From positions 1 through 63,967 of IMG/VR virus record IMGVR_UViG_3300031718_000009: a stretch of 63,967 nucleotides of DNA, one strand, 5' to 3'. Origin of the DNA: a virus. Made by a program: the position numbers and the translations under genes. Positions 3,328 through 47,547 of this stretch are shown piece by piece. The notes under the pieces were generated by a model. It worked only from the letters and a program-made list of their open reading frames with translations. It was not told the DNA's origin and did not search any database. Within the stretch, counting starts at the first letter, position 1. Each line of letters opens with the position of its first letter.

Positions 3328-3460
3328 CGTCCGATAAACCCAATTTTCTAAAAACCTCCCTAAGCGCATACCTCCATCCGCATTGAAGACCGGTCTCAAA
3401 CCCTGTCCAAAAACAAATGCAGCAAAAAATATACAGATCGATCCAGAACATCATCAGCAT
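3311..3460 (-). CDS. Small membrane protein
   Basis: This 49-residue protein has one strongly hydrophobic, cysteine- and aromatic-rich segment (MFWIDLYIFCCICFWTG) and a short basic/acidic tail. Its start forms TGATG with the stop of the preceding gene, which decides this start over longer in-frame options. The function is unknown. Confidence 0.6.
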   Translation of the reverse strand: MLMMFWIDLYIFCCICFWTGFETGLQCGWRYALREVFRKLGLSDDGDNH

Positions 3461-3783
3461 CACCCATTGAGCCTGATGTCTCCAGGGTTTGCCACAAGCA
3501 GACCGGCCCGCTGTGCCTGGTACGCCGACTCTGCCTCTCGGCTCGGTGCGTTGGTCCATTGGATCAATCGCGTGTTGAGCATGATCGAGGTGCCGCTAAG
3601 GCACGGCGAGTCGCGCAAAAAGTTTCTAAACAGAATTGTTTTTGGCGGCGCGATTTGCAGAAAACACGGGTATTCGAATTTGATAAAAAACCCAAGTGGC
3701 GTGTCGGTGGTATCCCACGTCGTCTCGCCGATCAGGTCGATACCGCCAACCATCGTGAGGATGACCAGTTGTTTGGGTTTCAT
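3460..3783 (-). CDS. Hypothetical protein
   Basis: This 107-residue protein is beta-rich at the N-terminus, where KPKQLVILTMVGGIDLIGE looks like a small Sm-like or SH3-like barrel. A region with a LFRNFLRDS helix follows. The start overlaps the upstream stop (ATGA) and its stop overlaps the next start (TGATG). Family not recognised. Confidence 0.65.
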   Translation of the reverse strand: MKPKQLVILTMVGGIDLIGETTWDTTDTPLGFFIKFEYPCFLQIAPPKTILFRNFLRDSPCLSGTSIMLNTRLIQWTNAPSREAESAYQAQRAGLLVANPGDIRLNG

Positions 3784-4019
3784 TCCGCAATCTCCGGTAT
3801 GCCTGCACCGAGCTTCGCGCGCAGTTCTGGGGATAACGGCGGGAGGGGTTTGTCCCGGTACTTGGCGGCGAGAGCGGCTTCAATGTCGCGATCCGCTTCG
3901 GCATAAAGTTCGTCTCGATTTTTGTGCAACACCTTCTCGAAATCTCTACCGAGAGGTTGCATGCTGTTTGCCAATTCGCGGATTAGCGTGCTTACTGGTG
4001 CTCGATCGTTGGTTGTCAT
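3780..4019 (-). CDS. Hypothetical protein
   Basis: This 79-residue protein is highly charged and helical, with a Pro-rich segment (DKPLPPLSPELRAK) near the C-terminus. It is tied to both neighbours by 4-bp ATGA overlaps. No domain recognised. Confidence 0.65.
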   Translation of the reverse strand: MTTNDRAPVSTLIRELANSMQPLGRDFEKVLHKNRDELYAEADRDIEAALAAKYRDKPLPPLSPELRAKLGAGIPEIAE

Positions 4020-5819: not shown

Positions 5820-6208
5820 CTCAAAATGTCCTTGAGCCTGATCAGCGCGACGGTGAACCTGCCGCCGTCGCCAGCCCTATCTCGCCATTGTCCGGCGCGG
5901 ATCGCTTCGCGCGTAAGTTCCTTTAATCGCCAGACAGGAAACATCAAATAGACGAGCGTGCTGTCATCGCGTCGCAGCTCGTGAACCCATACGTCCGCTT
6001 CAGTCGTTGCGATCCCGGACGGCTCGCCGTTCTGCCGGTATTCGATGCAAATATTACCCGTCTGTTCCCATTGCCATGTCTCGCTTTTGAGCTCGATGCG
6101 CCCATTGCAAAGGATGCCCGCAAGCTCATGTTCGCGCAAACGCGCTTGGCTCAATTGAAGATCAAACTTGTTGTCACGATTGAATTCGATTGGTCCGCAC
6201 CCGCTCAT
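5816..6208 (-). CDS. PD-(D/E)XK nuclease, Holliday junction resolvase-like
   Basis: This 130-residue protein follows the small PD-(D/E)XK layout. It has an early glutamate in REHELAGIL, then GRIELKSET carrying the E-x-K pair, then [15 protein letters not shown], a short helix and [10 protein letters not shown]. Proteins of this shape are found in many alphaproteobacterial phages as endonucleases or resolvases. It is encoded directly after dnaA, so a role in replication or recombination intermediates is likely. Confidence 0.7.
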
Positions 6209-7422
6209 GACAAAAGCATCCTGCTTAAAACATCGATTTCCTCGGCAAGCGCCTTGTCCTCGGCGACAAGCTTTTCGATCTTTCGCACGCCATGCAATAC
6301 CGTTGTGTGATCTCTACCGGCGAACCGCCGCGCAATGTCCGGCAGTGATCTCAGCGTCAACTGCTTTGAGAGATACATAGCGATCTGGCGCGGGCGCACC
6401 ACGCACGCGGTTCGCCGCGCGGATAAGATGTCGTCGCGGGTTACGTTGAAATGGCTCGCGACCATTTTCTGTATGGCCTCGATCCTGACCTTTTTCCGCT
6501 CTGGCTCGCACACAAGATCACAAATGGCGGACTCGGCGAGCTCCATTGTCACATGGCCTGGAGATTGGTAGTGATGATGCTCAGAATTTTTCACCGACGA
6601 ACACGCTACTAGACGGTTTACCGCTCCCACGAGATCGCGCCCGTTTGTCTGAATAACGCTCGCGATGTAGGCGATAACCTCGGCTGGAACCTCAAAAGTT
6701 TGATGCACCAGTTTGACGGCGGCTATGCGCGCTTCGAGAATTTTGACCCGTAAATCCGCATCTAGCGGACCGATTTCGATGCAGAGGCCGCCGGCAAAGC
6801 GCGAGCGGGTTCTTTCTTCGAGACTTTCGAGATCGCGCGGCGGGCAATCGGCCGCGACTATGATCTGCTTTTGAATGTCGTCGAAAAAGGCATTAAGCGC
6901 ATAACAAAACTCCTGTTGAATCGACTTGCCCTGAAGAAATTGAATGTCGTCGATCACGAGGACATCAACAGCACGTAGTCTTTCCTTGAACGCGCATGCC
7001 GTCTGTGCCTTGAGGGCTGACACGAACCCGTACATGAACCGATCCGCGGTCAAATAGAGGACTTGCCGGTTTGCGGCTGCGGCCTGCGCTACAGCTTGGA
7101 GAAGATGCGTTTTCCCCAACCCAACCGAGGCATGTAGATACAACGGATTGTAAATAGGCTTGATCGCACACGCCGCTCTGTTCGCCTCGACGTATGCCAC
7201 GCGGTTCGAGTCGCCGACATGGAAGCTCGTAAACGTCATGCGGGGATCGAGCGAAGAGCCGGTAATAGGCTCGACTGTCTTCTGTGGCGGTTTGACTGTC
7301 TTCTGTGGCGGCTGGATGGATTTCTTGGGCGGCGGCGGAAACCATGCCTCATGAATGCGATCATGCTCCGCGGCGATATGATCGAGCAGCGATGAACCCG
7401 TGTTGTGGCGAAGATCGGTCAT
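6205..7422 (-). CDS. dnaA: Phage-encoded DnaA replication initiator
   Basis: This 405-residue protein has the core of bacterial DnaA. Walker A (SVGLGKT) lies near residue 99-105, Walker B (VLVIDD) at 154-159, the box VII arginine region (EERTRSRF) near 202-209, and a sensor II-like [10 protein letters not shown] at 261-270. The domain IV signature [17 protein letters not shown] at 367-383 binds DnaA boxes. Domain I, which loads helicase DnaB in cellular DnaA, is missing. Instead residues 1-60 are short and Pro/Lys-rich with a repeated PPQKTV unit. It probably opens the phage origin and recruits host or DUF1376-linked factors in another way. The 4-bp overlaps place it in the replication operon. 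Confidence 0.92.
7272..7311. repeat. Tandem 21-bp repeat inside dnaA
   Basis: Two copies of a 19-base core (GACTGTCTTCTGTGGCGG plus one base) occur 21 bp apart, in frame, coding for the repeated PPQKTV linker. Initiator genes of lambdoid phages carry origin iterons inside the coding region, so this is a weak origin candidate. Two copies are few. Confidence 0.6.
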
Positions 7423-38189: not shown

Positions 38190-40124
38190 TTATGCAAGCC
38201 TTTCGATTGTTGCCTGTTGAATGGTCCAGAGATCACCAGCTACAACAACAGACATAGAGAACTGTAGGAAGATGTTAGTAGTGGCGCCAGTTGGATTAGC
38301 TGAAACAGGGGCTATAGTCTGAAGTGTATATACTCCAGTAGTAGAATTTAAAGCGGTGAATATCGATCCAGTTAAATATGCTGCTATCGCTGAAGTACCA
38401 ACAACAAAGAATTCAATACGAAAATTAGTAGTCTGGGCAGTAGATGCCGCAACAGCTAACGAAATACTACCAAGATTAGCCCCCCATTTAACACCAACCA
38501 CCGCATTCCTAGCCGTAGCACTCGACACGGCTGCGAATGTACCGATTGCCGTTAGTCTATATACCTGAGAGGCATTAGGCGGCGGTGTTGAATAACTAAC
38601 CCCTGAGCTTGTTGGCGTAACCGTGGCTGGGACTGTGTTGGCGCTTGACAGAGGCGCCCCTACCATCCCCAACGTTGGGACGGCGGGTCCACTTGGCTGG
38701 ACTATCGGCTCGTCTGCTTCCGGCGCCTCAAGGTAGACGGCTGGCCCGAGTGGACCTTGAGAGCCCGTGATCCCCTGAATTCCCTGCGGACCAACAACCG
38801 GGCCAAGCGCCACGGCCTCGTCTGCTTCTGGAGCTTCAAGATAAACCGGCGGCCCAAGAGGACCCTGCGCGCCGGTTATGCCCTGAATGCCTTGCGGGCC
38901 AACAACAGGAACGACAACCGGTTCATCGGCTTCGGGGGCTTCGAGATAGACGGGAGGTCCGACAGCGCCAGGCACCCCTTGAATGCCCTGGATGCCCTGG
39001 ATGCCTTGAGGTCCTGGCTGCGTTATCGGCTCGTCTGCTTCCGGCGCCTCGAGATAGACCGGTGGGCCAAGAGGACCCTGCGCGCCAGTCGAGCCAGTCG
39101 AGCCAGGCACGCCTGGAGGCCCGGCAACACCGGGAAACATAACCGGTTCGTCGGCTTCGGGGGCCTCAAGATAGACTGCCGGCCCTGTGGGGCCTTGTCC
39201 TCCCGTCGTGCCAGGCGCGCCGGCTAATCCTTGCGGTCCAGGGATGACGATAGGTTCGTCAGCCTCGGGGGCTTCTAGGTAGACGGCAGGGCCGATCGGT
39301 CCAGGCGCGCCGGTCGTACCAGGAGCTCCCGTGGTTCCCTGTGGGCCAGAAGGTCCCGGAATGGCGATCGGCTCATCGGCTTCCGGCGCTTCGAGGTAGA
39401 CGGGAGGCCCAAGGGGTCCTTGACTGCCAGTCGGGCCTTGAATGCCCTGAATGCCTTGCGGACCAACGACCGGAATAACAACCGGCTCGTCTGCCTCCGG
39501 CGCTTCGAGATAAACTGCGGGACCCGCGGGCCCCTGAGCACCGGTACTGCCGGGCGGGCCAGCGGCACCGGGAACCCCTGGGATGATGATCGGCTCGTCG
39601 GCTTCCGGGCCTTCGAGGAACACTGTGGCACCTTGAGGACCAGGAACCCCTGGCGCGCCTGGAAGCCCCGCGGCGCCCGGCACCATGACAGGTTCATCCG
39701 GGTCCGCCGGATCGAGAAACAATGTTTGGCCTGGTAGCCCGCTTGCACCAGGCGCGCCGGGCGCTCCAGGAGAGCCGGCGGGGCCTGCCGGACCCGTAGG
39801 ACCAGGTGGACCTGGCGGCCCTGGCCCACCACCGCCGCCTCCTTCGTCCTCGGCAGCAACTCCATCGCCGCCCTGCACGCCCCGCTTCTGCATGTCGCGG
39901 AGAAAGGTCGCAAGAACCTCCGCGGTTTTCGTCGGCGTGTTGTTGGTAATGTCGAGGGTTCTAAGCGGCGGGGTAGGTGCCTTTATGGTGTAAGCGTCGG
40001 CTAGTGTGCCCCCCTCTTGCCGCGAGAAGGCGGCAATCGTCGTAAGCGCCTGCATACACCAGGCAAGTTTTGCATCGGTCGAAGCGTTTGGCGGCGGCAT
40101 TCCGGTTAAGGAAAGCGCACGCAT
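38190..40124 (-). CDS. Collagen-like fibre with YLEAPEADEP repeats
   Basis: This is 644 residues. An N-terminal helical anchor (1-95) is followed by Gly-X-Y runs from about 97 to 485. The runs are broken ten times by the unit VYLEAPEADEP (two N-terminal copies are divergent: LFLDPADPDEP and VFLEGPEADEP). The last 150 residues form a beta-rich head that ends LWTIQQATIERLA, likely for binding. The DNA of the head (38200-38560) is much AT-richer than the stalk, as if acquired separately. Such trimeric fibres bind host surfaces. Confidence 0.8.
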   Translation of the reverse strand: MRALSLTGMPPPNASTDAKLAWCMQALTTIAAFSRQEGGTLADAYTIKAPTPPLRTLDITNNTPTKTAEVLATFLRDMQKRGVQGGDGVAAEDEGGGGGGPGPPGPPGPTGPAGPAGSPGAPGAPGASGLPGQTLFLDPADPDEPVMVPGAAGLPGAPGVPGPQGATVFLEGPEADEPIIIPGVPGAAGPPGSTGAQGPAGPAVYLEAPEADEPVVIPVVGPQGIQGIQGPTGSQGPLGPPVYLEAPEADEPIAIPGPSGPQGTTGAPGTTGAPGPIGPAVYLEAPEADEPIVIPGPQGLAGAPGTTGGQGPTGPAVYLEAPEADEPVMFPGVAGPPGVPGSTGSTGAQGPLGPPVYLEAPEADEPITQPGPQGIQGIQGIQGVPGAVGPPVYLEAPEADEPVVVPVVGPQGIQGITGAQGPLGPPVYLEAPEADEAVALGPVVGPQGIQGITGSQGPLGPAVYLEAPEADEPIVQPSGPAVPTLGMVGAPLSSANTVPATVTPTSSGVSYSTPPPNASQVYRLTAIGTFAAVSSATARNAVVGVKWGANLGSISLAVAASTAQTTNFRIEFFVVGTSAIAAYLTGSIFTALNSTTGVYTLQTIAPVSANPTGATTNIFLQFSMSVVVAGDLWTIQQATIERLA

Positions 40125-45760: not shown

Positions 45761-46195
45761 CTACGTCGCGCTGTCCCACATCACGATCTTCGCGTTCGCC
45801 GCGTCGGGGTGCGCAATGCCGAATCCGCCCAAGTAATACCAAGCGACGCCGCGACTTCTTCCGTAGTCGTCCGGGATTTTGGCGCGTATCTCCTCGGGGA
45901 GCGCAATAGCTTCGGTCACTGTGTCGGCGCCGAATAGGAATGCCCAACTAGACTGTCCGTTCGCCCATGGGTCGGATACTTGCGCGTACGGATCGAATAG
46001 CACGGAAGCATCGGAACCGCCAGCCGGGATGAACGTCTGTTCAATAAAGCGGGTGTTTTCGTAACGGCCGATCTCGCCGGAGAAGATTTCGGCGATACCA
46101 AGGACCGTATACTGCTTGATGCCTTCGAGGGTGTTCTTGAACGGCCGGTAGGTCGTCGGCCGCGAGATCATCATATAGTCGTCGTCTTTGAAAGG
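45761..46195 (-). CDS. Major capsid protein, exon 2
   Basis: This exon gives 144 residues beginning PFKDDDYMMISRPTTYRPF, read in frame with exon 1 after removal of the intron. It contains the GIAEIFSGEIGRYENTRFIEQ motif typical of N4-gp56-like capsids, and a C-terminal YLGGFGIAHPDAANAKIVMW strand. The in-frame Met run at 46174 is not a real gene start: upstream codons stay open back to the splice site, and homologous capsids read straight through. Confidence 0.85.
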   Translation of the reverse strand, partial: PFKDDDYMMISRPTTYRPFKNTLEGIKQYTVLGIAEIFSGEIGRYENTRFIEQTFIPAGGSDASVLFDPYAQVSDPWANGQSSWAFLFGADTVTEAIALPEEIRAKIPDDYGRSRGVAWYYLGGFGIAHPDAANAKIVMWDSAT

Positions 46196-46989
46196 CTTAG
46201 TGTTCGCTCTGGTTCGCTACACCAGAACCGCCATTTGGCCGCTGCAACTTTCATTGCAGAACAGACTATATCTTGCTCCGTTATCCACAGAGACTGAGCG
46301 CTTCGGGCCGCTTGGCCCTACTCCCTTACGGGATAGTCGTTGAACGTTATCGAAGGATATGAAAGAGTGTAACCGTATCCCCCTTTCATGCGGTGAAACA
46401 TGAGACGACAACATCACTTCGCCACCCCAATGACGCCCTTTAGCGACATCGAAGCGGCTTACATCGCTGGAGTAATTGATAGCGATGGATGCATCCATTT
46501 CGAAAGAGCACGCCGTAAGAACGGCGGCTTCCGCTACAGGATCATCGTTGCCGTCGATATGTGCGATCTGCCTACTATGGAGCACATTTCCAAAACCACT
46601 GGAGGGCGTCTCGTCACAAAACGCTCTCTGCGCGGGTCGCTAACCAAACGACCATTCATTTATCGTCTCACTTGGCGGAACGGCCCTGCCGAAGATTTTC
46701 TTCGGAGGATTCTTCCGTTCCTGCACAACAAGAAACGGCAGGCAGAGCTTGGTATTGAATTCCAAAACCAAGTTGCAAAGCCCCTTGGAGTGAAATTCAC
46801 TGCTGATGATTTCACCATTTGCGAGCGCTTCTATTTAGAAATGAAAGCGCTCAACAATCCTTCCGATCTTCGCTGCTGATTGCCCAATCCTGCCAGTTTT
46901 CAAACCGTCGCGTTTATCCTCGCGGATTCCGCTGTGGTTGGCAGGCTCTAAGGGGTTTCCAGACAATTCACTCAGTGTACCCAAACTTT
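46196..46989 (-). ncRNA. Group IA intron in the major capsid gene
   Basis: This is 794 nt, self-splicing type. On the minus strand P1 is UACCU (46994-46990, exon) with GGGUA (46982-46978), giving the usual U.G at the 5' splice site after CCT. The core is recognised from AATTGTCTGG (46968-46959), AATCAGCAGC (46881-46872), GTTCAACGACTA (46345-46334) and the classic AAGATATAGTC (46274-46264); GACTA/TAGTC form P7. The intron ends in G before CCTTTC. The AAAG in the P1 loop can pair with CUUU of exon 2 as P10. The endonuclease gene sits on the opposite strand in the P6 region. Confidence 0.88.
46400..46879 (+). CDS. LAGLIDADG homing endonuclease, antisense in the intron
   Basis: This is 159 residues with a single LAGLIDADG motif (AYIAGVIDSDGCIHF, residues 20-34), so it should act as a homodimer, like I-CreI. 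It would cut intronless capsid genes at the exon junction and drive intron homing. It may start at 46400 or at the second Met, 46430. No Shine-Dalgarno is clear. It is transcribed against the capsid gene. Its stop TGA (46877-46879) lies inside the intron core element AATCAGCAGC on the other strand, so the gene end and the ribozyme constrain each other. Confidence 0.88.
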   Translation: MRRQHHFATPMTPFSDIEAAYIAGVIDSDGCIHFERARRKNGGFRYRIIVAVDMCDLPTMEHISKTTGGRLVTKRSLRGSLTKRPFIYRLTWRNGPAEDFLRRILPFLHNKKRQAELGIEFQNQVAKPLGVKFTADDFTICERFYLEMKALNNPSDLRC

Positions 46990-47547
46990 AGGTATGTTTT
47001 GCTCCTTCATATAGTCCGAAAGAGCTTTGATATGCCCTGTATTCAAGCCAACGTTGTTGGTGATCGCTGTTGAGCCGGTCGTTGAGACCGTTACTGACGT
47101 GAGGGACGTTCCGCCGGTCGGTGCAGCTCGAAGCGGGGTCTGCTTGAACTGCAAGAAGGCGACGATGTCGAAGAATTTCCTGGCGTCGTTCTTCAGCGTC
47201 TGATTGATGATCGCCATGATGTCGTGTTTGGCGAGGTCCATCAGCTTGCCGGTGAAGGGAACGGAGATACCGGCTTCGGTGATCGTCAGCGTCCGCTGAA
47301 GGATCGTAAAGCCGCCTTCCGGCATGGCTTGGCGCTCGTCGAGCTGGCGCCCTTGAGTGCCAATATTCGTATAAACGTTCCAGTGAAAGAGATCACCGCG
47401 GTTTAGACCTTTCTGTTCTCCGTCTGGAGCGTCGCAAAACTGTCTAAACTTGGTTAGCGGTTGAGTAACGGTCCGCATATAGTCGGAAAGTTCGTCCGAA
47501 TACGCGAAGCCGCCCTCGCTTGAGACCGTCCAGATTTGTCCGGCCAT
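46990..47547 (-). CDS. Major capsid protein, exon 1
   Basis: This exon gives 186 residues of an N4-gp56-like capsid, starting MAGQIWTVSSEGGFAYSDEL. It includes FTILQRTLTITEAGISVPFT and ends SDYMKEQNIP. Without splicing the frame stops five codons into the intron. Spliced to exon 2 it gives 330 residues with NIP-PFKDDDY at the joint, matching the spacing of this family. The ribosome site AGAGG lies in the 3' arm of the hairpin at 47556-47579. Confidence 0.88.

Follow-up and report, generated by a model that had tools for sequence, protein, structure and literature searches.

The interrupted capsid gene

The window is the whole of the IMG/VR virus record IMGVR_UViG_3300031718_000009 (63,967 bases), which encodes a large terminase, a portal protein, and an integrase and carries recognisable genes on its minus strand from approximately 17.6 kb to 63 kb. 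The nearest relative we found is a 62 kb IMG/VR contig (L001), which we refer to as the sister phage. One minus-strand ORF (38190-40124, 644 aa) has collagen-like G-P-x runs and a repeated VYLEAPEADEP motif, and another (6205-7422, minus strand) resembles a DnaA/DnaC-type replication protein (phrog_50, 3.6e-9). The major capsid gene lies in two exons on the minus strand, separated by a stretch that has the anatomy of a group I intron and encloses an ORF on the opposite strand:

46990..47547, minus strand: exon 1 of the major capsid gene, codons 1-186, ending ...AACATACCT, with homology to phrog_1357
46196..46989, minus strand: group IA2 intron of 794 nt, with U at -1 and a terminal G (RF00028, empty site in L001, fold)
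46978..46996, minus strand: P1, formed by exon CAUACCU and internal guide GGGUA, with U.G at the splice site (sequence)
46969..46976, minus strand: 5' strand of P3, ACUGAGUG, forming 8 pairs with CGCUCAGU at 46300-46293 (fold, sequence)
46872..46966, minus strand: P4-P5 domain, from UUGUCUG through the R element AAUCAGCAGC (RF00028, fold)
46349..46868, minus strand: P6 stem, GAUCGGAAGGAU / AUAUCCUUCGAU, with the antisense ORF in its loop (fold, sequence)
46400..46879, plus strand: antisense ORF of 159 aa, single-motif LAGLIDADG (phrog_5046, profile, model, and Foldseek)
46234..46345, minus strand: P7, P7.1, P7.2, P3', P8, P7', and P9, the IA2 signature (R1, fold)
46211..46240, minus strand: P9.1 and P9.2 hairpins (fold, sequence)
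45761..46195, minus strand: exon 2 of the major capsid gene, starting CCTTTC, codons 187-330 and stop (phrog_1357)
Core motifs, minus strand, in the right order: AATTGTCTGG near 46967, AATCAGCAGC at 46881-46872, GTTCAACGACTA at 46345-46334, and AAGATATAGTC at 46274-46264

When 46990 is joined to 46195, the reading frame continues through 330 residues with neither frameshift nor stop. Against phrog_1357 (major head protein), the joined protein reaches 1.3e-12 with a match that spans the junction, and the halves alone reach 0.005 and 2.9e-6 (exon 2). It is 47-48% identical, over 99-100% of the length, to capsid proteins of Vibrio phages and of Escherichia phage PTXU04, whose record carries a capsid_maj_N4 domain annotation, and by these similarities the predicted spliced product is an N4-gp56-type major capsid protein.

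The capsid protein of the sister phage is 98% identical to that of the window over 272 residues, and its gene lacks this intron: it reads ...MKEANIPPFKDDDYM... in one frame (...NIPPFKDD...), with NIP and PFK contiguous. In 79 further capsid homologues, drawn from viral contigs, the alignment runs through as a single segment; these are the best-scoring matches kept, a selection that capsid genes interrupted at the same site could escape. The insertion site is the conserved motif MKE.NIP of the capsid gene, and the MKE.N.P site is read through in 73 loci. The intronless allele of the sister phage, the 79 homologues, and the phrog_1357 match bear out the initial annotation, in which joining CCT to CCT restored an in-frame 330-residue capsid protein. 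The protein sequence alone leaves the junction uncertain by one base; the group I rules, which call for U at -1 and a terminal G, fix it at 46990/46195 (the intron 3' end is ...CACUAAG).

A group IA2 ribozyme on the minus strand

The minus strand of the intron holds the P, Q, R, and S elements and helices P3-P9 in order, and both P7.1 and P7.2 are present between P7 and P3'. P7.1 together with P7.2 is the mark of subgroup IA2. Comparison at the sequence level thus confirms a group IA2 intron at 46989-46196 that interrupts the major capsid gene, which narrows the group IA assignment made earlier for this strand from the four ordered core motifs. In a recent database, over half of the group I introns of viruses belong to IA2 (PMC11835236). 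The P1 helix (UACCU/GGGUA) has the U.G at the splice site that had been described, and the P10 suggested as possible is present in weak form, with 4 pairs (AAAG with CUUU).

Folding of the intron RNA without the ORF gave z = -3.5, and 0 of 100 shuffles were as stable. The minimum-energy structure, also with the ORF removed, holds P3 (8 pairs), P4, P5, P6, P7.1, P7.2, P8, P9, P9.1, and P9.2 together.

The Rfam model RF00028, by which the intron was to be checked according to the initial annotation, gives a divided answer. At its curated gathering cut-off of 50 bits it has no match in the window, which taken alone might seem to be the refutation that the initial annotation had specified; with permissive filters it scores 33.2 bits (E 1.7e-6) and the whole 253-position model is covered. 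The score probably stays below 50 because approximately 500 nt are inserted inside the ribozyme at P6, and the cut-off is a database threshold and no defining trait of group I introns. The capsid intron of mycobacteriophage LittleE, whose splicing is proven, likewise falls under it (30.7 bits). An independent covariance model (R1) covers the P7-P9 half of 44 other viral introns, with the window left out. R1 scores the window at 99.6 bits (E 1e-20) at 46234-46345 on the minus strand, a value to be read with the gathering pattern in mind, which biases the model towards P7 sequences and leaves P7.2, P8, and P9 free to differ.

From this anatomy, the element is predicted to be self-splicing. The metagenomic origin of the contig and the RF00028 score under the curated cut-off would also be compatible with a locus that has no active intron, be it through chimeric assembly, decay of the intron, or an insertion that breaks the capsid gene. 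We consider this extremely unlikely given that all core helices are intact, that the junction is exact and in frame and yields an uninterrupted 330-residue gene, and that R1 matches at E 1e-20.

The 29-base P7 to P7.2 pattern of the intron was found in 59 stretches of viral contigs, and the sequence and structure of its P7-P7.1-P7.2-P8-P9 region resemble those of the td-type IA2 introns of T4. The ribozyme is of the common phage IA2 type.

The antisense LAGLIDADG gene and its expression

The plus-strand ORF at 46400-46879 is the sole stop-free frame of that stretch, and the chance of such an ORF in a shuffled insert is 0.0008. Its earlier reading as a LAGLIDADG gene proved correct: the ORF matches phrog_5046 at 7.4e-21, a group that is labelled HNH, yet whose members here bear LAGLIDADG motifs. 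The single motif (YIAGVIDSDGCI) and the catalytic acidic residue lie at residues about 21-32. The Pfam LAGLIDADG_1 profile gives the ORF 18.7, under the cut-off of 23.1, and a profile of the seven-member family matches I-CvuI (7.7e-13), I-MsoI (2.4e-12), and also I-CreI. Three sequences went into an AlphaFold2 model, whose confidence is modest (pLDDT 65) and whose helices and strands come in the expected order. Its best solved matches by Foldseek are I-MsoI, I-CvuI, and I-CreI (E 9.3e-6 for I-CvuI), with poor superposition (TM about 0.42). Profile and model together suggest that the product is probably an I-CreI-like single-motif LAGLIDADG endonuclease, predicted to act as a homodimer.

No close relatives of the endonuclease were found in the viral or genome contig collections, nor in 50 phages with related capsid genes, the latter by a search without a positive control. 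An alignment of diverse endonucleases was too variable for a scan of the collections. The nearest annotated phage relatives are 27-34% identical, lie on the same strand as their surrounding genes, and are free-standing or inside methylase genes. The insert is low in G+C (0.50 versus 0.57), and its codon use is unlike that of the phage's own genes; both features are consistent with a recent arrival.

At its 3' end (last codons and TGA stop), the ORF is complementary to the 5' strand of P6 and to the R element, so the C-terminus of the endonuclease is dictated by the ribozyme sequence. Such an overlap might serve regulation, with plus-strand RNA pairing with the ribozyme and delaying splicing and capsid synthesis until late infection, and interference of this kind has been discussed for nuclear cases (PMC9548176). 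A regulatory role is very unlikely here, since it has neither a detectable promoter nor comparative conservation on its side and nothing requires such regulation.

For the separate, perhaps early, antisense promoter envisaged by the initial annotation we found no support. Among sigma-70-like sites on the plus strand of the window, the best one upstream of the ORF comes only 228th, and a consensus promoter scan returned none upstream of the ORF; phage promoters of unknown type would escape these scans. There is also no clear ribosome-binding site before the ATG. The main rival explanation does without plus-strand transcription of the ORF: the intron splices, the antisense gene is an untranscribed passenger, and the intron is immobile or reliant on a nuclease from elsewhere. 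This fits the lack of a plus-strand promoter above background, the minus-strand orientation of the surrounding recognisable genes from approximately 17.6 kb, the atypical codon use of the ORF, and the vanishingly low expression that the Edgell review assumes for the antisense gene segD of T4 (PMC2988022). It leaves unexplained why the 159-codon frame is intact, with motif and catalytic acid, when nothing else is known to keep it open, and it sits poorly with the compactness of the insert, in which the gene ends inside the ribozyme core. We judge it to be unlikely, but to deserve serious consideration.

Our preferred and, we think, probable reading is that of a mobile self-splicing IA2 intron in the capsid gene with an I-CreI-like LAGLIDADG gene reversed into its P6 loop. 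Late minus-strand mRNA would carry the ribozyme, which would excise itself and rejoin the codons for Pro186 and Pro187, restoring the capsid protein. The LAGLIDADG gene would have entered the P6 loop in reverse orientation. Its product, if made from a plus-strand transcript, would most likely make the intron mobile by cutting the capsid allele that lacks it, into which the intron would then be copied during repair. The arrangement raises the question of the route by which a homing gene is expressed when it lies antisense within a highly transcribed late gene.

The sister phage offers a natural comparison, as it has another insertion with a sense endonuclease in the same gene. This insertion (L001:3233-4000) follows codon 58 and is probably a group I intron. 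Its ribozyme signal is weak (17.4 bits, E 0.09; with R1 21 bits, E 0.007), and it holds a sense LAGLIDADG ORF (3350-3919) that also falls in PHROG 5046. One gene thus carries different endonuclease-bearing insertions in two related phages, with the endonuclease in sense orientation in one and antisense in the other. At the site of the window intron, the sister allele differs at 7 of 21 bases just upstream. A co-conversion test of the window against this allele counted 9 mismatches in 30 bases of the 5' exon and 2 on the 3' side (p about 0.014, nearest 7 codons), and since stretches as divergent are expected somewhere in the capsid gene, this is only a hint of co-conversion beside the intron. 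Separately, a stretch of 36 bases with no counterpart in the window (L001:3128-3165) interrupts the sister capsid gene in its N-terminal part; it begins with an in-frame TAA after ...TTC CGT and ends in ATG CAG. It may be an error, or it may point to recoding or to a restart at the internal ATG.

Comparison with other introns and homing genes

We surveyed at least 209 other viral group I cores (at least 126 plus 83), which were collected with three patterns favouring IA2 and represent a sample and no census. At least 110 antisense ORFs near these cores, each of at least 90 residues, were scanned against Pfam, and none of those listed was an in-intron antisense ORF with a homing-endonuclease domain. 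The only nuclease-like antisense matches among those listed were one Endonuclease VII and one SNase domain. We rejected both as equivalents of the window gene: the former (in L262) lies upstream of the intron and outside it, and SNase is no homing-endonuclease family. Sense ORFs of the same neighbourhoods included at least 22 with HNH_3 (16 plus 6) and at least 11 with GIY-YIG domains (8 plus 3).

In the sample, such introns often lie next to capsid genes, so the location of the window intron in a capsid gene is ordinary. The 29-base P7 to P7.2 pattern is shared by L034, L122, and L242-L298, where capsid genes of several families often adjoin the intron, and IA2 introns may thus reside preferentially in capsid genes. 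The Endonuclease VII-like gene of L262 (666-1511) lies on the opposite strand just upstream of an intron-interrupted capsid-like gene, an arrangement that recalls T4 segD. The intron there scores 76.3 bits with RF00028 at 1542-1752, and the Endonuclease VII-like gene is possibly its free-standing partner.

I-CreI, I-MsoI, and I-CvuI are encoded on the sense strand of chloroplast rRNA introns. The window ORF is like them in length, in having one LAGLIDADG motif, and in its predicted order of helices and strands, with about 20% identity in structure alignments. In the introns of T4, the endonucleases are of the GIY-YIG or HNH type and lie on the sense strand (PMC2988022), whereas the window intron has an antisense LAGLIDADG gene. 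The sole antisense homing gene of T4, segD, lies beside the major capsid gene 23 (PMC2988022). Like the window ORF, it is a homing-endonuclease-like gene opposite to its neighbours; unlike it, segD is free-standing, of the GIY-YIG family, and outside any intron. The nuclear rDNA introns Dir.S956-2 and Dsq.L2066 of Didymium carry antisense His-Cys endonuclease genes, for which mRNA from the antisense strand has been shown (PMC9548176). They share with the window an endonuclease gene opposite to the ribozyme, but they are eukaryotic nuclear rDNA introns of another subgroup, with another endonuclease family and a proposed polymerase II transcript.

The initial annotation had described antisense endonucleases as known mainly from nuclear rDNA introns. 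Such introns do exist, as in Didymium, but the statement is incomplete, as a phage capsid case that is spliced in vivo was published in 2013. In mycobacteriophage LittleE, an 819-bp intron, most likely of group I, splits the major capsid gene, and the bottom strand of the intron bears a LAGLIDADG-like reading frame (Pope et al. 2013, PMC3706429). Splicing of this intron was proven by RT-PCR and N-terminal protein sequencing (PMC3706429). The LittleE record (JF937101) has gp13 joined on the plus strand and gp14 within it on the minus strand. In LittleE and the window alike, a phage major capsid gene is interrupted by a group I intron of similar size that has an opposite-strand LAGLIDADG-type ORF. 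LittleE gp14 and the window endonuclease both belong to PHROG 5046, with only 26% identity over 50 residues. The LittleE ORF follows P9 (core 1359-1562, ORF 1565-2098 of L215), whereas that of the window is in the P6 loop; the LittleE core has no match to the IA2 model (R1, 14 bits), and its capsid family and insertion site also differ. With another loop, another capsid family, and an endonuclease so distant, the window shares the layout of LittleE and not its lineage, and judged by these differences the two arrangements look independent.

One could go further and suppose that transcription of the endonuclease gene from the plus strand and splicing of the minus-strand capsid message are mutually exclusive in time, that the homing gene would act as a switch of capsid expression, and that this layout was selected independently here and in LittleE; we regard this as speculative and very unlikely. 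An antisense endonuclease in a phage intron was already known, and the window is a second phage case of a backwards homing gene in a capsid-gene intron. The position in P6 as opposed to P9 and the different capsid family suggest that the two have independent origins, and the antisense-endonuclease layout is no speciality of nuclear rDNA.
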